Part shown: positions 14,710 to 29,095 of the stretch, piece after piece
How the letters are laid out: every line of letters begins with the position of its first letter
Numbering within the stretch: position 1 is the stretch's first letter
Assembly: GCF_900475285.1 (NCBI RefSeq)
Contig: NZ_LS483370.1
Span: 4,602,001-4,666,000 of the forward strand
Reading direction: 5' to 3'
DNA length: 64,000 bases
Source: Pseudomonas taetrolens
GTDB lineage: Bacteria > Pseudomonadota > Gammaproteobacteria > Pseudomonadales > Pseudomonadaceae
Position numbers and translations under genes: made by a program
Notes under the pieces: model-generated
Databases searched by the model: none
What the model was told of the DNA's origin: nothing
Seen by the model: the letters and a program-made list of their open reading frames with translations, nothing else

Positions 14710-15483
14710 ATGGCTTTGGCCACGCCCGCGCTTGAAATCCGCAACTTGCACAAACGCTACGGCGAGCTTGAGGTACTTAAAGGTATCTCGCTGACCGCAC
14801 GCGACGGCGACGTGATCTCGATCCTGGGTTCTTCCGGTTCCGGCAAGTCCACCCTGCTGCGCTGTATCAACCTGCTGGAAAACCCGCACGAGGGCCAGAT
14901 CCTGGTCGCCGGGGAAGAGCTCAAGCTCAAAAAAGCCAAAAATGGTGAACTGGTCGCTGCCGATGGCAAACAGATCAATCGCATGCGCAGCGAACTGGGG
15001 TTCGTGTTTCAAAACTTTAACCTGTGGCCGCACATGACCATCCTCGACAACGTGATCGAGGCGCCGCGTCGGGTACTGGGCCAGAGCAAGGCTGAAGCCA
15101 TCGTGGTGGCAGAAGCATTGCTGGCCAAGGTTGGTATCGCTGACAAACGTCATGCCTATCCGTCCGAACTGTCCGGCGGACAGCAACAGCGTGCCGCCAT
15201 TGCCCGTACGCTGGCCATGCAGCCCAAAGTGATTCTGTTCGATGAGCCGACATCAGCACTTGACCCAGAAATGGTTCAAGAAGTACTTAGTGTGATCCGC
15301 GCACTCGCCGACGAAGGTCGCACTATGCTGTTGGTCACCCATGAGATGAGCTTTGCTCGTCAAGTGTCCACCGAAGTAGTGTTTTTGCATCAAGGCCTGA
15401 TCGAAGAGCAAGGGTCGCCTGAACAGGTTTTCGATAACCCGGTTTCGGCGCGCTGCAAACAATTCATGTCCAGCAATCGCTAA
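14710..15483 (+). CDS. polar amino acid ABC transporter ATP-binding protein (HisP/AotP type)
   Basis: A 257-residue ABC ATPase that powers uptake of basic or polar amino acids. Walker A is GSSGSGKST (about residues 40-48), the Q-loop [13 protein letters not shown], the signature LSGGQQQR near 157 and Walker [15 protein letters not shown] with a downstream switch His in LLVTHEMSF. The insertion after Walker A ([20 protein letters not shown]) is typical of HisP and AotP. It is the first gene of a four-gene operon with its binding protein (13-base gap) and two permeases. The same operon sits after mutY-yggX in P. aeruginosa (PA5152-PA5155). Confidence 0.93.
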
Positions 15484-15496
15484 CGGAGCAACCCGA

Positions 15497-16252
15497 ATGC
15501 AGAACTATAAAAAGCTTCTCCTGGCCGCTGCCGCCTCGCTGGTGTTCAGTGCCAACGCCTTGGCTGTTGATAAGTACAAAGTCGGGATTGAAGGCGCTTA
15601 CCCACCGTTCAATAACAAGAACGCCAGCGGCGAGGTGGTCGGTTTCGACCCGGATATCGCCATGGCCCTGTGCGCCAAAATGAAAGCCGAGTGCGAAATC
15701 GTGACCTCGGACTGGGATGGCATCATCCCGGCGCTGAACGCCAAGAAGTACGACTTCATTGTGTCGTCCTTGTCGATCACTGACGAACGCAAGCAAGCCG
15801 TCGACTTTACCGACCCGTACTACTCCAACAAGCAGCAGTTCATCGCACCGAAAAACGTCGATTTCAAAACCGACCTCGAGTCGCTCAAAGGCAAGGCCCT
15901 GGGCACACAGCGTTCTACCCAGGCCGCAACCTGGCTGGAAGACAACCTGGGCACGGACGCGACCGTCTCCTTGTATGACACCCAGGAAAACGCCTACCTC
16001 GATCTGACATCCGGCCGTGTCGATGCACTGCTGGCTGACAAGTACGCCAACTTTGATTGGCTGAAAAGCCCGGCTGGCCAGCCTTACGAATTCAAAGGCG
16101 AGCCCGTCAACGAAGATGACAAGGTGGGGATCGCACTGCGTAAAGGCGACAACGAACTGCGCGCCAAGCTGAACCTGGCCCTCAAGCAAATCGTTGAAGA
16201 CGGCACGTACAAGAAGATCAACGACAAGTATTTCCCGTTCAGCATCTACTGA
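15497..16252 (+). CDS. periplasmic basic/polar amino acid-binding protein (HisJ/ArgT-like)
   Basis: A 251-residue solute-binding protein. Residues 1-23 are a Sec signal peptide (basic MQNYKKLL, hydrophobic AAAASLVFSA, cleavage after NALA). The mature SBP_bac_3 fold has KVGIEGAYPPFNNKN, GFDPDIAMALCAKM and DWDGIIPALNAKKYDFIVSS. SLSITDERKQAVDFTDPYY is the family signature, with the Asp and Arg that grip the ligand's amino and carboxyl groups. Two cysteines (Cys56 and Cys63) fit the disulfide seen in HisJ. Ligand likely histidine, arginine, lysine or ornithine; the sequence does not settle which. Confidence 0.92.
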   Translation: MQNYKKLLLAAAASLVFSANALAVDKYKVGIEGAYPPFNNKNASGEVVGFDPDIAMALCAKMKAECEIVTSDWDGIIPALNAKKYDFIVSSLSITDERKQAVDFTDPYYSNKQQFIAPKNVDFKTDLESLKGKALGTQRSTQAATWLEDNLGTDATVSLYDTQENAYLDLTSGRVDALLADKYANFDWLKSPAGQPYEFKGEPVNEDDKVGIALRKGDNELRAKLNLALKQIVEDGTYKKINDKYFPFSIY

Positions 16253-16310
16253 CCTGCCTGACCGGCGCGCCCCAGGGTTGCGCCGGTCCCTAGCAAAGCC
16301 TGCCTACCCC

Positions 16311-17003
16311 ATGACTATCGATTTATACGGATTCGGCCCGGCGCTTGCCGCCGGGGCGCTGATGACCGTCAAACTGGCACTGACTGCGCTGTGTCTTGGC
16401 CTGGTGCTCGGGTTGCTCGGTGCATTGGCCAAAACCTCCCCCCTCAAACCTTTAAGGTGGCTGGGCGGTACTTATTCAACACTGGTTCGCGGTGTACCCG
16501 AGCTGCTCTGGGTGCTGCTGATTTACTTCGGCAGCGTGAACCTGGTCCGTGCCATCGGCGAAGCCATCGGCATGCCCGAACTCACCCTCAGCGCTTTCGC
16601 GGCGGGTGTGATCGCGCTGGGGCTGTGTTTTGGTGCCTATGCGACCGAAGTGTTTCGCGGTGCCATTCTGGCCATTCCCAAAGGTCACCGCGAAGCGGGC
16701 ATGGCCCTGGGCATGTCCAAGCCACGGATCTTCAGCAAACTGATCCTGCCGCAAATGTGGCGCATCGCCCTGCCCGGCCTGGGCAACCTGTTCATGATCC
16801 TGATGAAAGACACCGCGCTGGTATCGGTGATCGGTCTGGAAGAAATCATGCGCCAGGCCCAGAACGCCGTGACCTTCGCCAAACACCCTTTCACCTTCTA
16901 CATGGTGGCCGCCGTGATGTACCTGGGCCTGACCGTATTGGCCATGGGCACGATGCACGTGCTTGAAAAACGCGCTGCGCGCGGCTTTGTGAGGAGGACG
17001 TAA
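16311..17003 (+). CDS. amino acid ABC transporter permease (HisQ type)
   Basis: A 230-residue inner-membrane permease with about five membrane helices. Residues 5-60 carry YGFGPALAAGALMTVKLALTALCLGL. The coupling-helix EAA loop is HREAGMALGMSKPRIFSKLILPQM, where it docks on the ATPase, and FRGAILAIPKGHREAG is the family block. The ATG at 16311 gives the family's normal N-terminus; earlier ATG codons lie inside the binding-protein gene. It follows the binding-protein gene by 58 bases and overlaps the next permease start by one base (TAATG). Confidence 0.92.
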   Translation: MTIDLYGFGPALAAGALMTVKLALTALCLGLVLGLLGALAKTSPLKPLRWLGGTYSTLVRGVPELLWVLLIYFGSVNLVRAIGEAIGMPELTLSAFAAGVIALGLCFGAYATEVFRGAILAIPKGHREAGMALGMSKPRIFSKLILPQMWRIALPGLGNLFMILMKDTALVSVIGLEEIMRQAQNAVTFAKHPFTFYMVAAVMYLGLTVLAMGTMHVLEKRAARGFVRRT

Positions 17004-17692
17004 TGGAGTGGGAAATCATCCTCAAGTGGATGCCCAAGCTGATTCAGGGCGCGACCCTGACGCTGGAGCTGACGGCCATCTCGGTTCTCGCCGGTCTGAT
17101 TGTGGCGATTCCGCTGGGCATCGCCCGTTCGTCCAGGCTGTGGTACGTGCGTGCACTGCCTTATGCCTACATCTTTTTCTTCCGGGGCACGCCCCTGCTG
17201 ATTCAGCTGTTCCTGGTGTATTACGGCCTGGCGCAATTCGACATGGTGCGTGAAAGCGTATTGTGGCCTTATCTGCGCAGCCCGTTCTGGTGCGCCATCA
17301 TCACCATGACCCTGCACACGGCGGCCTATATTGCCGAGATTCTGCGCGGCGCAATCCAAGCCATCCCACCGGGTGAAATCGAAGCCGCACGTGCCCTGGG
17401 CATGTCTCGCTTCAAAACCCTGGTGCACATCGTCATGCCACGTGCCACGCGCATCGGCCTGCCGGCCTACAGCAACGAAGTGATCCTGATGCTCAAGGCC
17501 AGCTCGCTGGCGAGTACCGTGACCTTGCTGGAACTGACCGGCATGACCCGCACCATCATTGCCCGCAACTACCTGACGGTGGACATGTTCCTGACCGCCG
17601 GGATGATCTACCTGGTGATGTCATTCGTACTGATTCAGGGCTTCAAACTGCTGGAGCGCTGGTTGCGCGTCGATGCCTGCCAAGGGCGCTAA
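17003..17692 (+). CDS. amino acid ABC transporter permease (HisM type)
   Basis: A 229-residue second permease, partner of the HisQ-type protein in the heterodimeric channel. It begins MEWEIILKWMPKLIQGATLT, has helices at about 20-45, 55-80, 95-115, 150-170 and 190-215, and the EAA loop EIEAARALGMSRFKTLVHIVMP. RGTPLLIQLFLVYYGLAQ is the HisM/GlnP hallmark. AGGAGG lies five bases upstream of the ATG, a strong site given the one-base overlap with the HisQ stop. Its 3' end overlaps the methyltransferase gene by 20 bases. Confidence 0.92.
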   Translation: MEWEIILKWMPKLIQGATLTLELTAISVLAGLIVAIPLGIARSSRLWYVRALPYAYIFFFRGTPLLIQLFLVYYGLAQFDMVRESVLWPYLRSPFWCAIITMTLHTAAYIAEILRGAIQAIPPGEIEAARALGMSRFKTLVHIVMPRATRIGLPAYSNEVILMLKASSLASTVTLLELTGMTRTIIARNYLTVDMFLTAGMIYLVMSFVLIQGFKLLERWLRVDACQGR

Positions 17693-18905
17693 ACCTCACG
17701 TGCTGCGTGGCGAGGCTCTGCTCGCCCGCTTCCAGGCACTGGACGCCTTTCTGCATGAACACCAGCACCTGTGGCGCCCACGGCCCTTCACTCATCTGAA
17801 TGTGCCGTGGGAAGCGCAGCACCCCGAACTGGCGCAGTGGTTGCGCCAGCGTTCGCTGCAAGACGCCGAAACCAGCCACAACCATCCCCAGCACGTGCCC
17901 GCCCCTGCGCCATTCCCCGAACTGGCCACCACTTCCTGCACCCTGAGTTCGGTTGACCGGCTGGCGACACAGGTGCTTGCGCCCGCTAACCAGCGCTTGC
18001 AGGTGGACGTGCCGGGCCGAAAATGGCAACAGATTGAAGCCTTTGCCCAAAGCCTGACCTTCAAGCAAGCACCTGCCCACTGGCTGGACTGGTGTTCGGG
18101 CAAAGGCCATTTGGGGCGTCGGCTGCTGAGCGCCGGGCAGCAACTGACGTGCCTGGAATATGACCCGGCACTGATCGAATCCGGCCAGGGTCTCAGCCAG
18201 CGCCATCACTTGCCGGCCCGTCATGTTCAGCAGAATGTGCTCGCCCCCGAAGCAGCCTTGCACCTCACACCCCGGATGACACCAGTGGCGCTGCATGCCT
18301 GCGGCGATTTGCATGTCCGTCTGCTGCAACTGGCAAGCGCAGCAGGCTGTGCACAACTTGCCATATCGCCCTGCTGCTACAACCGTATCAGTGCGTCGCA
18401 CTATCAGGCGTTATCCACAGCCGCCACAGCATCAGGCTTGCAGCTGTCGCAGGAAGACCTGAGCCTGCCCATGAGTGAAACCGTGACCGCTGGCAGCCGC
18501 GTGCGGCGCCAGCGCGACGAATCGATGGCGCGGCGGCTGGGCTTTGATGTGTGGCAACGCCAGCGCCGTCAGTGCGATGAGTACTTATCCACACCCTCGC
18601 TGCCCGGCGCCTGGCTGAACAAGCCGTTTGCCGAGTACTGTGAAGACCTGGCAGCGCTGAAGAACTTATCCACAACCGGCGCTGAAGACTGGCCCGTCCT
18701 AGAAGCGGCAGGTTGGGCGCGCCTGGCCCAGGTGCGCAATCTGGAGCTGGTACGCGGCCTTTTCCGTCGCCCGCTGGAACTGTGGCTGGTTCTGGATCGG
18801 GCGCTGTTTATGGTGGAGAACGGCTATGAGGTTGAGATTGGCGAGTTCTGCGACAGCCATCTGACGCCGCGCAATCTGATGTTGATCGCGCAGCGTTGTG
18901 GATAA
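17673..18905 (+). CDS. SAM-dependent methyltransferase (Methyltransf_32-like)
   Basis: A 410-residue cytoplasmic protein. Residues 115-260 form a Rossmann methyltransferase core: WLDWCSGKGHLGRRLL (138-153) is motif I, LTCLEYDPALIESG follows, and ALHACGDLHVRLLQLA with ISPCCYNRI (about 230-238) is the PCC(Y) block of the Methyltransf_32/GSTCD-like group. That group includes suspected tRNA or RNA methyltransferases, but no substrate is established to my knowledge. It overlaps the permease gene by 20 bases, so it belongs to the same transcript. Three rare TTA leucine codons each begin a perfect TTATCCACA, and a fourth copy, inverted, overlaps the stop codon. Confidence 0.8.
   Translation: MPAKGAKPHVLRGEALLARFQALDAFLHEHQHLWRPRPFTHLNVPWEAQHPELAQWLRQRSLQDAETSHNHPQHVPAPAPFPELATTSCTLSSVDRLATQVLAPANQRLQVDVPGRKWQQIEAFAQSLTFKQAPAHWLDWCSGKGHLGRRLLSAGQQLTCLEYDPALIESGQGLSQRHHLPARHVQQNVLAPEAALHLTPRMTPVALHACGDLHVRLLQLASAAGCAQLAISPCCYNRISASHYQALSTAATASGLQLSQEDLSLPMSETVTAGSRVRRQRDESMARRLGFDVWQRQRRQCDEYLSTPSLPGAWLNKPFAEYCEDLAALKNLSTTGAEDWPVLEAAGWARLAQVRNLELVRGLFRRPLELWLVLDRALFMVENGYEVEIGEFCDSHLTPRNLMLIAQRCG
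18411..18905. repeat. cluster of four perfect DnaA-box 9-mers
   Basis: TTATCCACA occurs at 18411-18419, 18585-18593 and 18666-18674 on the plus strand. Its complement TGTGGATAA is at 18897-18905, where the last three bases are the stop codon of the methyltransferase gene. The three direct copies are all in the same reading frame (Leu-Ser-Thr). Chance would give about one such 9-mer (both strands) per 130 kb. No AT-rich unwinding region or oriC neighbours (dnaA, dnaN, rpmH) are present, so this is not the origin. A DnaA-binding or titration site is possible. Confidence 0.6.
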
Positions 18906-18956: not shown

Positions 18957-19367
18957 CTACGACCCGCGATACGTCGAGAAGCCGTAAGGGCTGAGCAGCA
19001 GCGGAATGTGGTAGTGCTGACCGGCGTTTTTCACTTCAAAAATCACCGGTATTTCCGGGAAGAACGTCTCGCGGCCAGCGCTCTTGAAGTATTCACCGGT
19101 TTTAAACACCACCCGATACTGACCCGCCTCAAAGGTTTGCCTCGCCGGAAACAGTTCGCCGATACGCCCCTGTTCATTGGTCACGCCCTGCGCCAGCGGT
19201 TGCCAGTCTTGACCCACATGCTTTTCCAGCGTGACATTGACGCCCGGTGATGGCAGACCGTTTTCCAGGTTGAGTACATGCACGCTCAAAGGGTTGCCAG
19301 CCCCCAGTGTCAGGCTCGACAAGGCGCTCAGGCTCATAGCCAGCACCGTCATTTGCAAAGCTTTCAT
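18957..19367 (-). CDS. hiuH: 5-hydroxyisourate hydrolase, exported (transthyretin-like)
   Basis: A 136-residue transthyretin-related protein that hydrolyses 5-hydroxyisourate, the product of urate oxidation. Residues 1-22 are a signal peptide (MKALQMTVLAMSLSALSSLT), so this is the periplasmic form, like E. coli YedX. The mature part has NPLSVHVLNLENGLPSPGV with the active-site His, an NEQGRIGELFPA block carrying the Arg, and the signature C-terminus PLLLSPYGFSTYRGS. No urate oxidase or OHCU decarboxylase is nearby, so it is not in a purine operon. It follows the HbpS-like gene by 36 bases on the same strand and faces a two-component system, as yedX does in E. coli (hprRS). Confidence 0.93.
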   Translation of the reverse strand: MKALQMTVLAMSLSALSSLTLGAGNPLSVHVLNLENGLPSPGVNVTLEKHVGQDWQPLAQGVTNEQGRIGELFPARQTFEAGQYRVVFKTGEYFKSAGRETFFPEIPVIFEVKNAGQHYHIPLLLSPYGFSTYRGS

Positions 19368-19403
19368 CGGTCATCCTTTAGTCATGGTTAAAAAACAATC
19401 AAC

Positions 19404-19883
19404 TCAGCGTTGAATGGTCAGGCCGATCTGTTTCGCCGCTTTTAGCGCGCAGGCTTCGTCTTGCTCAGCCCCTCCAGCACCCGCCCCCCCCATCGCGCCG
19501 ACCAGTTCACCCTCGGCAAACAACGGCACACCACCGCCCAGCAGCAACAACTCAGCGATGGAATTGAGGTTGTTCGCTTCAGCATTGGCTCGCGCACGTT
19601 CGGCAAACAAACGGGTCGGGGTTTTGGTCGAAAGCGCGGTATAGGCTTTGCGTTGGCTGGCCAGCAGGTTGTGCGGGCCAACACCCTCCGGGCGCATCGC
19701 TATCAGCACATTGCCACCGCGATCGAGCACGCTCAGCGCGCCGGTGCAATGCATGAGCGTGGCGTCAGCCAGTTGGCGGGCGATGGCCAGATCCAGGTCG
19801 GCATGACGCGCCAGATTCGGTGCTGCCAGGGCGGTGCCGGCAACACCTACGGCAGTCCACAACAACAAGGTTTTCAGCATCAT
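19404..19883 (-). CDS. exported HbpS/GlcG-like protein (DUF336)
   Basis: A 159-residue protein with a signal peptide (MMLKTLLLWTAVGVAGTALA, cleavage before APNLARH), so periplasmic or secreted. The mature part is the GlcG/HbpS fold: DLDLAIARQLADATLMHCTG, SVLDRGGNVLIAMRPEGVGP and AELLLLGGGVPLFAEGELVGAMGGAG, the conserved core. Some relatives bind haem; in Streptomyces HbpS is an extracellular partner of the SenS/SenR two-component system. Here it forms a unit with hiuH and is divergent from a two-component system, sharing its control region. AGGAG lies seven bases before the ATG at 19883. Haem or small-ligand binding is inferred from family only. Confidence 0.85.
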   Translation of the reverse strand: MMLKTLLLWTAVGVAGTALAAPNLARHADLDLAIARQLADATLMHCTGALSVLDRGGNVLIAMRPEGVGPHNLLASQRKAYTALSTKTPTRLFAERARANAEANNLNSIAELLLLGGGVPLFAEGELVGAMGGAGAGGAEQDEACALKAAKQIGLTIQR

Positions 19884-19947
19884 GGGCTAGCTCCTGTAGG
19901 AATGAGCCCACCTTAACCAACGACCTCCGTCAGAACCCCGTCAGTTG

Positions 19948-19965
19948 CATTACAAGTTTGTAATA
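19948..19965. promoter_or_regulatory. HprR/CusR-like operator dyad between divergent units
   Basis: CATTACAAGTTTGTAATA holds a perfect inverted repeat ATTACAA-GT-TTGTAAT (19949-19964). This matches, from memory, the E. coli HprR box form CATTACAA-N2-TTGTAATG. It lies 64 bases upstream of the HbpS-like start and 53 bases upstream of the response-regulator start, well placed for divergent control and autoregulation. Confidence 0.75.
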
Positions 19966-20018
19966 GGCAACGCCCCCGAAGGCGCCTAGCCTGTGCTAAC
20001 GATTGATCGAGGTGTGCG

Positions 20019-20693
20019 ATGCGTTTGTTAGTGGTTGAAGATGAAGCCAAGACGGCAGATTTCCTGGCCAAAGGCCTTCAAGAATCAGGCTTTGCGGTGG
20101 ATGTGGCACTGAACGGGCTGGACGGCCGTTACTTTGTCGAGCAGCAGGAATACGACCTGATCATCCTCGACGTGATGCTGCCGGGGCTCAATGGCTGGCA
20201 ACTATTGCAATTGATTCGCCAACGCGGCGCCACGCCCGTACTGTTTTTGACCGCCAAGGACGCTATCGAAGACCGCGTGCGCGGCCTTGAACTGGGCGCC
20301 GACGATTATCTGCTCAAGCCCTTTGCCTTTGCCGAGTTGCTCGCCCGGGTACGCACCTTGCTGCGCCGTGGCCCCATGCGCGAGGCCGAGTCGTATGCCA
20401 TCGCCGACCTTGAAATCGACGTGCTGCGCCGCCGCGTCAGCCGGGGCGGGCAACGCATCAGCCTGACCAACAAAGAATTTTCGCTTCTGCAACTGCTGGC
20501 CAGCCGTCAAGGCGAAGTCTTGTCGCGCACCTTGATCGCGTCCCAGGTCTGGAACCTCAATTTCGACAGCGACACCAATATGGTCGAAGTCGCCGTGCGT
20601 CGCTTGCGCGCCAAGGTCGACGATCCCTACATGCCCAAACTGATCCATACCGTGCGCGGCGTCGGGTATCAGCTGGAAGCACCCGATGAGTAA
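20019..20693 (+). CDS. heavy-metal/redox-type response regulator (HprR/CopR-like)
   Basis: A 224-residue OmpR-family regulator. Receiver domain residues 1-115: acidic pair in VVEDEAK, phosphoacceptor Asp51 in [13 protein letters not shown], the switch Thr/Ser in FLTAKD, and Lys in [13 protein letters not shown]. The winged-helix DNA-binding domain (about 125-220) contains [21 protein letters not shown] and [18 protein letters not shown], highly conserved in CusR/CopR/HprR. It overlaps the kinase start by eight bases. The neighbouring hiuH gene and the ATTACAA dyad favour an HprR-like peroxide/HOCl or copper role over a general metal regulator. The assignment rests on context. Confidence 0.9.
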
Positions 20694-22119
20694 GTCCATT
20701 GCCTGGCGCCTGGCGCTGGCAATTGCTTTGACCTGCGCATTGGTGATGAGTCTGATCGGGGTGTTTCTGTATCGCTCATTGGCCTCCGAACTGGCATGGC
20801 GTGACGATCAGGCTCTGCTGGGGCGCCTTGAGCAGGTACGCGCCCTGTTGCATGACAGCGACAGCCTCGAAGCCCTGCAAGAACGCCCACGGTTGTATCA
20901 AAACATGCTGGGCAACCTGGACAGCGTGTTGCTGGTCAAGCGTGAGGACGGCAGCCCGTTGATTGCGATTAATCCGCACCAACAAGCCTTGCCGGACGTA
21001 CCACCGATTGCTCAAGCACGGGCACCACAACGCACCGATATCAAAACGGTAGGCGCGACAGTGCTGCTGGCAGGTATGGCGCAAGGCCCGGCAGGGGAAA
21101 CCTTGAGCGTCACGGTGGGCAAGCGTCTTGATGAGCGTGAGCAAATGCTCGCCAGCTATCGCATCCGTTTGTATGGCGCTGTGGGATTCGGTGCATTGAT
21201 GGCTTTCGGCCTTGGCCTGCTGCTGTTGCGTCGCGGTCTCACGCCTCTGCGTGACCTGGCCCGGGCCATGGCCGGTATCGACCCGCGCAGCCTCGACCAA
21301 CGCATGAGCGCCGACCACGTACCGGCCGAACTCAAAGAACCCGTGCAGGCACTCAACGCCATGCTCGCACGGCTTGAAGACAGCTTTGCACGGCTGTCGC
21401 AGTTCTCCGCCGACCTGGCCCATGAAATCCGCACGCCGTTGCACAACCTGCTGGGCAGCAACAGCCTGGCCTTGAACCAGTCACGCAGCGCGGCCGAATA
21501 CCAGGAAGTGCTGGCCTCGAATATCGAAGAGTACGAACGCCTCAATCGCATGGCCGAAAACCTGATGTTTCTCGCCCGCGCCGAGCACGGTCAACGCCCC
21601 TTGCAACTGCACGTGCTGGATCTTGGAGAAGTGGGTGAAGGATTGTGTGATTACTTCGAGGCCCTGGCCGAAGACCGCCAGTTACGACTGTACAATCAGC
21701 TCAGCGGCCCCCTGACAGCCGACCTGCAACTGCTGCAACGGGCGCTGGGCAACCTGCTGGCCAACGCCGTGCGCCATGCACAAACCGGCTCGACCGTACG
21801 CCTGCTGCGTCACGACGATGCCGAATATGGCTGGATTGGGGTACACAACCTTGGCCCGGCGATTGACCCGCAACATATCGACAAACTGTTCGACCGCTTT
21901 TACCGGGTCGACCCGTCACGCGCCCAACCCGGTGACTCCGGCGGCCTGGGATTGGCGATCGTGCATTCGATCATGCACTTGCATGGCGGACAGGTACGCG
22001 TGGTGAGCAATGACAGCGGCACACTGTTTGAGCTGGGGTTTGCCCGCAATCCCCCGACTTTTCCGAGGTCCGGAGTCGATACCGTGCCAGCGCAGTCCAG
22101 TGCTCGCACCCAGACTTGA
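20686..22119 (+). CDS. sensor histidine kinase (HprS/CusS-like)
   Basis: A 477-residue inner-membrane kinase. Transmembrane segment 1 spans about residues 9-30 ([20 protein letters not shown]), a periplasmic sensor of some 130 residues follows, and segment 2 is at 164-182 ([18 protein letters not shown]). A HAMP domain follows ([19 protein letters not shown]). The dimerisation H-box is [20 protein letters not shown] with His246. The ATPase domain has N-box [15 protein letters not shown] and G-boxes [18 protein letters not shown]. The periplasmic portion contains several methionines. Redox, hypochlorite or copper sensing is suggested by the HprS resemblance and by two exported neighbours. Confidence 0.9.
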
Positions 22120-22203: not shown

Positions 22204-22279
<76 letters not shown>

Positions 22280-25095: not shown

Positions 25096-25596
25096 ATGTC
25101 GGCGCTCGACCATTCCGTGGTCCATCGGTTGTACCGCGATCACAACAGTTGGCTGAAAGGCTGGTTGCGCGTCCGGCTGGGCAATACGGCGGATGCTTCC
25201 GATCTTGCTCAGGACACGTTCCTGCGTGTCATGACGGCGCGCCATGACGCGCCTATCCGCGAGCCGCGAGGTTATCTGAGTACCATTGCCCGCTCGCTTT
25301 TGATCGATAAGGTCCGCCGCCGCACCATTGAGCAGGCTTACCTGCAGGCGCTGGCATTAAGGCCGGAGCCTGTGGATGTTTCGCCAGAGGTGCGCCTGTC
25401 GATCATCGAAACGCTGATCTCGATCGACGACCTGCTCGATGAGCTGGGGTCCAGGACGCGTGAGATCTTTCTGGCGGTGCAACTCGAAGGCTTGAGCTAC
25501 GTTGCCGCCGCTGAACGTTTCGGTGTGTCGGTCACCACGGTCAAAAACCATTTGATTCGCGCCATGACCCGCTGCCTGCTGCTGGTCGAGCAGTGA
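25096..25596 (+). CDS. ECF sigma factor, FecI family
   Basis: A 166-residue extracytoplasmic-function sigma factor. Region 2 (about 10-75) has LYRDHNSWLKGWLRVRLGNT, ADASDLAQDTFLRVM and EPRGYLSTIARSLLIDKVRR. Region 4 (about 105-160) has LLDELGSRTREIFLAVQLEG and VAAAERFGVSVTTVKNHLIR for -35 recognition. It overlaps the anti-sigma gene by four bases and lies upstream of a TonB receptor with a signalling domain, the classic FecI-FecR-FecA relay. It should direct transcription of the receptor when the cognate ferric siderophore binds. Confidence 0.94.
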   Translation: MSALDHSVVHRLYRDHNSWLKGWLRVRLGNTADASDLAQDTFLRVMTARHDAPIREPRGYLSTIARSLLIDKVRRRTIEQAYLQALALRPEPVDVSPEVRLSIIETLISIDDLLDELGSRTREIFLAVQLEGLSYVAAAERFGVSVTTVKNHLIRAMTRCLLLVEQ

Positions 25597-26543
25597 TGTC
25601 CAGCGCTCCGGATTTGAAGACGCTTGAGGCCGCTGCCACCTGGTACGTGCAGCTTAATGACGGAGCCGTCAGCGAGGCCCGGACCCGGGCCTGGCAGGCT
25701 TGGTTGCAAGCCTGTCCGCAGCACGCCGCCGCCTGGGCGCGTGTCGAAAAGCTTCAAAGCCAATGGGCAATGATCCCGCCAAAAGCAGCCCTCTCCAGCC
25801 TGGATGCCGCGAAAGCTCAACGCCGTGATGTCTTGAAAATGCTTGGCATGCTACTGGCCGTTGGCAGCAGTACATGGCTGGCGGTTGAGCACGTACCGTA
25901 TCGCTCGATGCTCGCTGAACACCGCACCGGTATCCGGGAGCGGCGCACGCTGCGTCTGGACGATGGCTCGCAACTGGAACTGAACAGCGACACGGCGCTG
26001 GATATCCTCTTCGATGCCAAACAGCGGTTGATCCGCCTGCACCAGGGCGAGATTCTGGTTCAGACCGCCAAGGACCCGGGCCAGCGCTCATTTATCGTGC
26101 ACACCGAGGATGGCAGCATACGCGCCCTTGGCACCCGCTTCAGCGTGCGTCAGTTACCCGGTCAGACGCGGGTCGGCGTAGAGCAATCGGCCGTGGAAAT
26201 TCGCCCCCTCAGGCACATTGATCTGCTCCTGCGGCTGGAAGCCGGGCAACAAGTCACTTTCGATCGCGATGCCGCCGGTGAAATCGAGCGTTTGCCTTCC
26301 GCCTCCACCGCCTGGGTCAAAGGCATGTTGAGCGTGGATGACTGGCGGCTGGGGGACTTTGTCGAGGAGCTGGGGCGCTATCGCCCGGGTGTACTGCGCT
26401 GTGCAACATCGGTTCAAGACTTGAGTATTTCGGGGGCTTTTCGGATCGATGACACCGAAACGGTTCTGGAGAACCTGGGTAAGACCTTACCGGTGAAGGT
26501 GCGTTATCTGACCCGTTACTGGGTCAGTATCGAACCGGCATAA
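25593..26543 (+). CDS. FecR-type anti-sigma/sigma regulator
   Basis: A 316-residue inner-membrane signal transducer. The cytoplasmic DUF4880 domain (1-75) includes AATWYVQLNDGAVSEARTRA and the WxxW-type LQACPQHAAAWARVEKLQSQ. A membrane helix lies near 85-100 (MLGMLLAVGSSTWLAV), and the periplasmic FecR domain (110-225) has GERRTLRLDDGSQLELNSD-type sequence (here IRERRTLRLDDGSQLELNSD) and HQGEILVQTAKDP. The C-terminal STN-interacting part reads SVDDWRLGDFVEELGRYRPG. It is coupled to the sigma gene by a four-base overlap and sits 113 bases before the receptor. Confidence 0.93.
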   Translation: MMSSAPDLKTLEAAATWYVQLNDGAVSEARTRAWQAWLQACPQHAAAWARVEKLQSQWAMIPPKAALSSLDAAKAQRRDVLKMLGMLLAVGSSTWLAVEHVPYRSMLAEHRTGIRERRTLRLDDGSQLELNSDTALDILFDAKQRLIRLHQGEILVQTAKDPGQRSFIVHTEDGSIRALGTRFSVRQLPGQTRVGVEQSAVEIRPLRHIDLLLRLEAGQQVTFDRDAAGEIERLPSASTAWVKGMLSVDDWRLGDFVEELGRYRPGVLRCATSVQDLSISGAFRIDDTETVLENLGKTLPVKVRYLTRYWVSIEPA

Positions 26544-26656
26544 GCGAACGCGCAAAATGCTTTGGCCTTTAACCTTGCTGATTTCGATTCTCATCCGTCA
26601 ATGACATAAGCCGCGACCGCAGCGCGTTTCTGCCATGACCATGCAAGGATCACCGA

Positions 26657-29095
26657 ATGCCCCCGCTCCCCCTCAATGCCACAACTAAAATAACGCGCGC
26701 TGTTCGCCTGGCGGTATTGGGTGCATCCCTCGCCAGCGTGTCCGGCCTGGCACTGATGTCCACTCAGGCTTGCGCGCAAAGCCAGACGGCTTATCAGGTC
26801 GCCGCAGGCCCGCTGGGCAAGGCCCTTACCCAATTTGGCGTGCAAGCGGGGGTCACTATTTCGTTCGACACCGAGCAGGCCCGGTACCTCAACACCGCCG
26901 GACTAGAAGGCTCGTACAGCATCGAGGAAGGCCTCGACCGTCTGCTCGCCAACAGCGGGTTGCAAGCACAGCGTCAGAGCAACGGTGGCTATGTACTTGT
27001 TGCCAGCAACCCCGAAGAGGCGCTGCAACTGGGGGCCACTCAAGTCATCACCAACCAGCTGGGCACGGTGACCGAAGGCACCGGTTCCTACACGCCCGGG
27101 GCCATTTCTACGGCCACCCGCCTGGTGCTGACACCCCGCGAGACGCCGCAATCGATTAGCGTGATCACCCGTCAGCACATGGATGATTTTGCGCTCGACA
27201 ATGTCGACGACGTGATGCGCCACACCCCCGGCATTACCGTATCGGCCTATGACACGGACCGGACCAACTACTACTCCCGCGGATTCTCGATCAATAACTT
27301 CCAGTACGACGGGATTCCCTCCGCCGTGCGTAACGTCGCTTATTCGGCGGGCAACACCCTGAGCGACATGGCGATCTATGACCGGATCGAGGTTCTCAAA
27401 GGCGCCTCCGGCCTGCTCAGCGGGGCAGGTTCCCTGGGGGGCACCATCAACCTGGTGCGTAAAAAACCCACCCACGAATTTCATGGCCATATCACCGCAG
27501 GAGCCGGTTCCTGGGACAACTACCGTACCGAAGTGGACCTCAGCGGCCCGTTGACCGAAACCGGTAATGTCCGCGGTCGCGCCGTGGCGGCCTATCAAGA
27601 CAGGCAGTCGTATATCGACCGCTACTCGAACCAGAGTTCGGTGTTCTACGGCATCCTTGAAGTCGACCTGACGCCCGACACATTGCTGACCGTGGGTGCC
27701 GACTATCAGGACAACAAACCCCAGGGCTCTACGTGGTCGGGGAGCTTTCCGCTCTACAACTATGCGGGTGAGATCAACGATGCCAAACGCTCATTCAGCA
27801 ACGCCACCGACTGGAGCAGTTGGCAGCAATACACCCGCACCGTCTTCGCGACCCTGGAACAGGATCTGGGCAGTGGCTGGGTGGGTAAGCTGCAACTGGA
27901 CCACAAGCTCAATGGCTACGATGCCCAATTGGGAGCGATCCAGTTCAACCAGCCCGCAGCTGATGGCACCGCCACAATCAACGCTCAACGTTACAAGGGC
28001 GAAACCACCAGCGATGCGGCCGACCTTTATGTCAGCGGCCCCTACAATTTTCTGGGGCGAGAGCATGAACTGGTGCTGGGCGGCTCGATCAGTACCGCGA
28101 ACTGGAAAGGCAAAGGTTACTGGGACGTCACGTTCGCCACACCCAACCTGGTCGATTACTTCAACTGGAACGGGCACCTGGCCAAACCTGACTGGGGCCG
28201 TGCGTCGCAAATCAGCGATGACACCGTGCGCCAGACAGGCATCTACGCCACCACGCGCCTGAACATCACTGATGACTTGAAGCTCTTCCTGGGCGGGCGA
28301 GTGGTCGACTACACCCTGACCGGTACAACCAATACCTACCGCGAGTCGGGGCGTTTGATTCCTTACGCTGGCATCACCTATGACCTCACCGACTACCTGA
28401 CCGCGTATGCCAGCTACACCGATGTGTTCATGCCTCAGGAGTTCTACAACCTGGATCGCAACAGCAAGATGCTGGACCCGGACGAGGGAGAAAACTATGA
28501 AATCGGCCTCAAGAGCGAGTTTTTCGATGGCCGCCTGAACGCCAGCCTGGCGTACTTCGAAGTCAAGGAAAGCAACCGCCCCACCCCGGACGATGACTGG
28601 AACAACCTGTCACCCACCCCGCCCAACTACGCCTTCAAGGGTACCGCCGCGAAAACCAAGGGCTACGAGCTGGAAGTGTCCGGTGAGCTGAGCCCGGGCT
28701 GGAGCCTGCAGGCCGGGTATACCCACAAGGTGGTGCGCGATGACACCGGTAAAAAGATTTCGACCTTCGAACCCGAAGATCAGCTCAGCTTCTACACCAT
28801 CTACAAACTCAAGGGTGATCTGAACAAAGTCTCCGTGGGCGGTGGCGCACGCTGGCAGAGCACAGCCTGGCAAGAGATGTACAACAGCCCCAAGGATCGC
28901 TACGAAGATTTCTCGCAAAAACCCTACTGGGTTGTGGATCTGATGACCCGCTATCAATTCACGGAAAACCTGTCGACCACGCTCAACGTCAACAACGTGT
29001 TCGACAAGTACTACTACACCAACATCGGCTTCTATAACTCAGCGATCTATGGCGAGCCACGCAACTTCATGCTGACCACACGCTGGGATTTCTGA
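26657..29095 (+). CDS. TonB-dependent siderophore receptor with STN signalling domain
   Basis: An 812-residue outer-membrane receptor and transducer. A signal peptide runs to about residue 41 (ending TQACAQ). The STN domain (about 48-100: YQVAAGPLGKALTQFGVQAG, SYSIEEGLDRLLANSGLQ) passes the signal to FecR. The TonB-box region and plug (about 150-280) contain ETPQSISVITRQHMDDF, YYSRGFSINNFQYDG and EVLKGASGLLSGAGSLGG. The 22-strand barrel ends NFMLTTRWDF, with terminal Phe as needed for Bam-mediated assembly. The YSRGFSINNFQYDGIP form recalls FpvA/FoxA-type hydroxamate or pyoverdine receptors, but the ligand is not assignable. The ribosome-binding site AAGGAT precedes the ATG by seven bases. 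Confidence 0.93.
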   Translation: MPPLPLNATTKITRAVRLAVLGASLASVSGLALMSTQACAQSQTAYQVAAGPLGKALTQFGVQAGVTISFDTEQARYLNTAGLEGSYSIEEGLDRLLANSGLQAQRQSNGGYVLVASNPEEALQLGATQVITNQLGTVTEGTGSYTPGAISTATRLVLTPRETPQSISVITRQHMDDFALDNVDDVMRHTPGITVSAYDTDRTNYYSRGFSINNFQYDGIPSAVRNVAYSAGNTLSDMAIYDRIEVLKGASGLLSGAGSLGGTINLVRKKPTHEFHGHITAGAGSWDNYRTEVDLSGPLTETGNVRGRAVAAYQDRQSYIDRYSNQSSVFYGILEVDLTPDTLLTVGADYQDNKPQGSTWSGSFPLYNYAGEINDAKRSFSNATDWSSWQQYTRTVFATLEQDLGSGWVGKLQLDHKLNGYDAQLGAIQFNQPAADGTATINAQRYKGETTSDAADLYVSGPYNFLGREHELVLGGSISTANWKGKGYWDVTFATPNLVDYFNWNGHLAKPDWGRASQISDDTVRQTGIYATTRLNITDDLKLFLGGRVVDYTLTGTTNTYRESGRLIPYAGITYDLTDYLTAYASYTDVFMPQEFYNLDRNSKMLDPDEGENYEIGLKSEFFDGRLNASLAYFEVKESNRPTPDDDWNNLSPTPPNYAFKGTAAKTKGYELEVSGELSPGWSLQAGYTHKVVRDDTGKKISTFEPEDQLSFYTIYKLKGDLNKVSVGGGARWQSTAWQEMYNSPKDRYEDFSQKPYWVVDLMTRYQFTENLSTTLNVNNVFDKYYYTNIGFYNSAIYGEPRNFMLTTRWDF

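Follow-up and report, generated by a model that had tools for sequence, protein, structure and literature searches.

We analysed a 64,000-nucleotide stretch of the Pseudomonas taetrolens genome (contig NZ_LS483370.1, positions 4,602,001 to 4,666,000; hereafter the window) that contains a cassette in which two genes for apparently exported proteins are divergent from a two-component system (TCS). On the minus strand lie a gene for an HbpS-like protein of the GlcG/HbpS (DUF336) family (19404..19883, 159 amino acids (aa)), the first gene of its operon, and hiuH (18957..19367, 136 aa), the second, encoding a 5-hydroxyisourate (5-HIU) hydrolase, with a gap of 36 bp between them. Both proteins have N-termini that by eye look like signal peptides. 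Across an intergenic region of 135 bp the plus strand carries an OmpR-type, HprR-like response regulator (RR; 20019..20693) and an HprS-like sensor histidine kinase (HK; 20686..22119) whose frames overlap by 8 bp, and within that region is a dyad of the HprR/CusR/CopR type, ATTACAA-GT-TTGTAAT (19949..19964, without strand). An earlier note on this DNA had described these open reading frames (ORFs), the gap, the divergence and a dyad within 19940-19970, all of which are borne out by our ORF calls and family models.

HiuH is matched by PF00576 and TIGR02962 (143.8 bits for the latter, cut-off 87.45), has the transthyretin-like proteins 2igl, 2g2n and 2gpz as its best PDB matches and falls short of the E. 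coli-type equivalog PRK15036 (142.2 bits vs a cut-off of 217). The HbpS-like protein is matched by PF03928 at 87.2 bits (cut-off 25) with HbpS as its best PDB sequence match, and a predicted model (pLDDT 81.9) has 3fpw and 3fpv as its top Foldseek matches, consistent with an HbpS/GlcG fold as the earlier note had proposed. The RR scores above the cut-off of TIGR01387 and the HK above that of TIGR01386, with HisKA and HATPase domains and a HAMP match below the Pfam cut-off. Against the HprR equivalog PRK11517 the RR reaches 296.9 bits, below the cut-off of 353, and we therefore call the pair HprRS-type and not HprRS proper.

Conservation of the neighbourhood was surveyed in 298 Pseudomonas genomes using orthologue thresholds of at least 129.7 bits for HbpS and at least 388 bits for the kinase; in one of the scans scoring was limited to the top 5 candidates of each genome. 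An HbpS-like orthologue was found in 101 genomes and hiuH adjoins it in every one, the two genes always being co-directional and adjacent with a gap of 14-158 bp between alignment ends. The kinase was found in 80 genomes and both hbpS and hiuH adjoin it in 80/80; the lack of conservation that the earlier note had named as grounds for giving up its proposal was thus not what we found. The exported HiuH type is present in 102 genomes, the odd one (G254, locus L112) holding a broken hiuH fragment with no hbpS or TCS near it, an apparent loss of the entire cassette. We fetched 93 of the 101 loci, comprising 72 of the 80 with a kinase and all 21 without, and the SVHVLN, HYHIP and YRG motifs of HiuH are conserved across these 93 orthologues, with the C-terminal YRGS present in the window protein. 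Among named genomes hiuH adjoins HbpS in all of the best 80 of 370 relatives, accompanied by a TCS in 63, by a receiver without kinase in 15 and by neither in 2. The nearest named HbpS relatives, at 86-91% identity, are those of P. bubulae, P. fragi and P. psychrophila, a set that may lack the records most similar to the window; the host thus probably belongs to the P. fragi group. A draw across the class gave an HbpS match in 21 of 321 genomes with hiuH and a TCS beside it in three (the window's own, G459 and G569). Within the order a HiuH match (E 1e-28) occurs in 9 of 244 genomes, four not beside HbpS and five beside it, the latter being two Pseudomonas already counted together with G459, G569 and G809.

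On plasmids, 77 records match HbpS and of nine stretches inspected four have an HprRS-type pair alongside a gene annotated as a 'heme-binding protein'. An Acinetobacter piscicola plasmid carries the full module in the same gene order, a Pantoea agglomerans plasmid carries it with the order swapped (hiuH first), and plasmids of Duffyella and Chimaeribacter retain hprRS and hbpS with hiuH reduced, possibly in one event, to a C-terminal remnant between the box and hbpS (L295 3666-3922 and L296 3681-3922, Chimaeribacter and Duffyella plasmids). These four differ from the window in having a box with a TGACA half-site, in being plasmid-borne and in being known from database annotation alone. A plasmid search with the kinase as query at E 1e-80 returned no match, and more distant HprRS-type kinases do occur on plasmids; the published Acinetobacter hiuH plasmid carries a different urate module. 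Exported HbpS-like proteins are also found without a TCS or hiuH, at L122-L127 and in three Escherichia stretches. The latter are IncF plasmids (L293, L294 and L300), one of them with two copies, and show neither TCS nor hiuH in the stretch. In Pantoea sp. SOD02 (L299) an exported HbpS-like gene adjoins a different TCS with, by eye, a LuxR-type regulator.

The dyad is identical at 15 of 18 bases to the E. coli HprR/CusR box CATTACAAAATTGTAATG, which lies between hprR and hiuH (PMC9302797). Together with a TCS divergent from hiuH this upholds the earlier reading of an HprRS-like pair with an HprR-type box. An exact match to ATTACAANNTTGTAAT occurs only once in the genome, at the dyad itself, and three further sites match it with at most two mismatches. 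One of these is CTGACAAAGTTGTAAT, located between a cupredoxin-like gene and a copR whose product is 65% identical to the window RR; the genome therefore holds an HprRS-like and a CopRS-like pair, each with its own, related box, a situation paralleled by HprRS and CusRS in E. coli. The genome's msrPQ is located elsewhere, and no match to the dyad with two or fewer mismatches was found there. Taken alone the dyad is not overwhelming, with a 7-bp dyad of spacer 0-8 arising in 183 of 5000 sequences simulated for the 135-bp region under a Markov-1 model, and the box is convincing because it is conserved across loci and not by its size alone. It is present in all 93 fetched loci (72/72 with the TCS and 21/21 without the kinase), in the form ATTAC-n6-GTAAT in every kinase-bearing locus, and absent from 13/13 receiver-only loci fetched, which occupy the same chromosomal site and lack hbpS-hiuH. 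The box thus goes with hbpS-hiuH and the full hprRS and not with the receiver. In a consensus drawn from 23 of these 72 loci a -10-like hexamer flanks the box on each side, TAAGGT towards hbpS (19910..19915, minus strand), a putative element known from conservation only, and TAGCCT towards the RR (19987..19992, plus strand), the second of which was not seen in the kinase-less clade described below.

The closest characterised counterpart is E. coli hprRS/hiuH-msrPQ (HprSR, YedWV), which has the same layout in K-12, with the TCS divergent from an exported hiuH, and two periplasmic methionine positions in its kinase. M74 (codon 20905-20907) and M154 (codon 21145-21147, both plus strand) of the window kinase align with E. 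coli HprS residues that we take to be its sensing methionines M72 and M153, and are kept in 72/72 and 69/72 kinases. The CopS paralogue of the same genome has L and F at these positions. The sensing function of HprS has been assigned to two periplasmic methionines, left unnumbered in the review concerned, which also gives a transmembrane cysteine as required for signalling (PMC10151825). In E. coli hiuH-msrPQ form one operon whose induction by hypochlorous acid (HOCl) requires HprSR (PMC9302797); no hbpS lies beside hprRS-hiuH in K-12, whereas here hbpS replaces msrPQ in the operon and is placed first.

On this evidence we consider it likely that the locus represents an HprRS-type cassette for oxidant/copper stress in the periplasm, in which HbpS serves as a second effector and not as a sensor. 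For the signal, the binding and activation steps and the biochemical job of HbpS we infer the following course. The kinase itself would sense reactive chlorine or related oxidants, probably via its conserved periplasmic methionines, and then phosphorylate the regulator, which would bind the central dyad and activate the two opposed promoters of its own hprRS operon and of hbpS-hiuH. HiuH would hydrolyse 5-HIU formed by periplasmic urate oxidation, and its role as a co-output, as suggested in the earlier note, is probable. The HbpS-like protein would be the second exported effector, with a place in the hiuH operon like that of msrPQ in E. coli.

The earlier note had instead proposed that HbpS could be a third, sensing component. 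Such a co-sensor or inhibitor would dock on the kinase in the periplasm and signal haem or oxidants to it, on the model of Streptomyces, where the redox-responsive TCS SenS-SenR has an exported partner of the same fold, HbpS. That protein binds to the sensing domain of SenS and modulates the autophosphorylation of the kinase (PMC4991794). The co-sensor also predicts what we observed among the 298 Pseudomonas genomes, in which no HprS-type kinase (at least 388 bits) without HbpS was found, and it is in keeping with the loss of hiuH from one Duffyella and one Chimaeribacter plasmid that kept HprRS and HbpS. Against it, the haem residue T113 and the exposed K108 of Streptomyces HbpS are L and N in the window protein and the core iron motif E78xxE81 is L..Q, and we reject a classical HbpS haem/iron sensor on these grounds. 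The surface D/ExxE, D143 and K83 of Streptomyces HbpS are kept as EQDE and K79, and haem might have other ligands here, such as H71. The kinase differs from SenS in being of the HprS type with methionines of its own, and in E. coli HprSR, which has no adjoining hbpS, responds to HOCl. HbpS moreover persists without a kinase in 21 of 101 loci, and of the 53 HbpS columns with 95% conservation or more across 49 near TCS loci, the 21 kinase-less loci show a change in none and a mixture in one (T86/S). The HbpS/HiuH divergence ratio is 1.38 vs 1.97 in the kinase-loss comparison, and constraint on HbpS is not relaxed after kinase loss. Nor do HbpS and the periplasmic domain of the kinase (residues about 33-157) co-vary specifically, the mirror-tree partial r being 0.19 (the lowest of four tested) as compared with 0.27 for the kinase core and 0.30 for HiuH, values without a valid p-value as the loci are related. 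The sensing role proposed earlier is thus not supported and we regard it as quite improbable.

A role in feedback, in which HbpS is mainly an output that also damps the kinase where one is present, as CpxP damps CpxA, with the kinase-less clade keeping the output role only, would accommodate the shared box and the apparent export of HbpS. The absence of a Pseudomonas kinase without HbpS and the survival of HbpS after hiuH loss leave room for such a role. HbpS also evolves faster in kinase-bearing loci, with a ratio of nonsynonymous to synonymous substitution rates (dN/dS) of 0.166 (22 loci) vs 0.092 (17 loci) in sets that differ in depth, which would allow for an extra variable interface. The unchanged conserved columns after kinase loss and the low partial r with the periplasmic domain count here too, and we think feedback unlikely. 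HbpS probably acts in the periplasm as an output of the HprR/CopR-box regulon and not as a sensor. C46, H71 and C145 are invariant in 93/93 orthologues and occur as well in the 10 aligned HbpS proteins from outside this set, marking a wider exported subfamily and not this cassette alone; with its invariant cysteine pair the protein may be a redox- or metal-handling effector of the periplasm.

The signal could instead be a metal, the pair being a CusRS/CopRS-like copper sensor and HbpS-HiuH an answer to copper toxicity. The names of TIGR01386 and TIGR01387, which are heavy-metal models, and the 65% identity of the RR to CopR allow this; E. coli hiuH is copper-induced as well, with msrP responding via CusSR (PMC9302797), and the box is CopR-like in a clade that lacks HprRS. 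Pseudomonas CopRS, like P. paraeruginosa CusRS, has a paralogous RR and kinase and a related dyad, CTGACA-n5-GTAAT. That box differs in its half-site, however, and in this genome it belongs to a separate CopRS-type pair beside the cupredoxin-like gene, whose CopS lacks the HprS methionines that the window kinase has, and the window pair diverges from hiuH, which is the layout of hprRS in E. coli. We regard a dedicated metal sensor as doubtful, though not to be dismissed. HbpS and HiuH might alternatively be a metabolic pair for periplasmic urate/5-HIU turnover with the TCS as a passenger, as could be read from their adjacency in 101/101 genomes including the kinase-less loci and from a Sphingomonas plasmid with uraH-MAPEG-hbpS and no HprRS. 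We reject an obligate pair of this kind because of the two plasmids on which HbpS survives hiuH loss. In E. coli hiuH stands without an hbpS neighbour and the window ORF list shows no urate-pathway gene besides hiuH adjoining the cassette, and the looser form of this idea appears very improbable.

Several observations weigh against the oxidant-responsive effector cassette that we favour. Besides the metal-model names and the sub-threshold HprR score, M154 is replaced by I/V in the kinases of Acinetobacter and Chimaeribacter, and the transmembrane cysteine of E. coli HprS, which we take to be C165, is V/L in the 12 kinases aligned; a cysteine in the first transmembrane segment, C17, is found in only 39/72. 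That no Pseudomonas kinase lacks HbpS, and that HprRS and HbpS outlast hiuH on two plasmids, would also be expected of a co-sensor. Of the 21 HbpS-matched genomes of the class 18 have no hiuH within ~1.5 kb, the hbpS-hiuH link thinning outside the order, and the literature searched held no measurements of binding or expression for a pseudomonad.

All 21 loci without a kinase group together in a single clade (bootstrap 98) within L040-L068, including P. marginalis, P. orientalis, P. libanensis, P. cedrina, P. canadensis and others, which we take to be members of the P. fluorescens subgroup. The clade has lost the kinase and the DNA-binding domain of the regulator and has kept hbpS, hiuH and the box in 21/21. 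What is left of the RR is a receiver of 119-122 aa in 17/21, a fragment in L061 and nothing in three (L045, L051 and L060). The box reads ATGACA-n5-GTAAT in 15, ATGACA-n4-TGTCAT in 2 and ATTACAGGTTTGTAAT in 4 of the 21, a TGACA half-site being found in 0/72 kinase-bearing loci. The P. aeruginosa CopR consensus is given as CTGACAn5GTAAT (PMC11195947) and CTGACAAAGTTGTAAT stands beside copR in 26/26 CopR loci read, so that in most of the kinase-less clade the hbpS box resembles one shifted towards the CopR half-site. A CopR of at least 89% identity occurs in 19/21 of these genomes; G031 and G136 have only CopR relatives of at most 57% identity, which argues against CopR control there.

A stand-alone HprR-related receiver (at least 69% identity) was found in 73 of the 298 genomes with the best 15 candidates per genome scored, which speaks against an origin confined to the 21-genome clade. 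We read the frames of 30 of the 73, 17 beside hbpS-hiuH and 13 without it, and all are 119-123 codons long. The 13 receiver-only loci (L318-L330) share a chromosomal site, with a DUF962 gene (and in 12 a Crp/Fnr gene) on one side and an AraC gene on the opposite side, and this site holds the full module in 27/72 TCS loci. The full module, hbpS-hiuH with a receiver, and the receiver alone thus occupy one chromosomal site as a natural deletion series within the genus. The receiver leader looks by eye like the hprR leader, receiver and HprR form a clade in two trees (support 100 and 93), and the receiver can be read as HprR shortened in place. Against this, the tree places the receivers, on a long branch, beside all HprR and not within them, so that an older split is possible, and 12 of the 56 holders outside the kinase-less clade carry a full module elsewhere. 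We reject simple decay in view of purifying selection on the receiver, median dN/dS being 0.064 beside hbpS-hiuH (17 loci, 133 pairs) and 0.100 alone (13 loci, 78 pairs). Glu7-Asp8, Asp51, Thr78 and Lys100 are kept in 17/17 receivers beside hbpS-hiuH, and His replaces Asp8 in 13/13 without it; among 120 listed database relatives position 8 is Asp in 73, His in 40 and unreadable in 7.

These arrangements may reflect a natural rewiring, which we put forward tentatively. The P. fluorescens subgroup would have lost HprS and the DNA-binding half of HprR, the hbpS-hiuH promoter would have been captured by CopR, and the leftover receiver, kept as a single-domain response regulator, would accept phosphate from CopS or titrate CopS. 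In genomes that have lost hbpS-hiuH as well it would persist as a pseudo-receiver without the metal-binding Asp8. The 12 holders with a full module elsewhere lower the odds of this joint account, and we see it as possible rather than likely.

To the left of the cassette by eye are ORFs of an ATP-binding cassette (ABC) amino-acid transporter (14710-17692; ATPase, binding protein and two permeases), followed by a methyltransferase gene (17673-18905, PF13679), and a tRNA-Thr (22204-22279) comes after the HK. Further along (25096-29095) ORFs for an extracytoplasmic function (ECF) sigma factor, a FecR-like anti-sigma protein and a TonB-dependent receptor stand in a row, again by eye.

We found no description of the HbpS-HiuH-HprRS-type combination in the open-access literature, judged largely by titles and abstract beginnings. 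The HprRS-HiuH kind of system is itself known, and the window adds to it an HprRS-type cassette with HbpS in the hiuH operon. An uncharacterised exported HbpS-like protein would thereby join the envelope oxidant/copper stress response, at a place where its function can be tested. Were the rewiring true, HbpS-HiuH would be a periplasmic effector pair passed between oxidant- and copper-sensing systems, and the arrangements found across one genus make the transfer of a regulon between a sensor kinase and its paralogue, and the function of an orphan receiver, directly testable.

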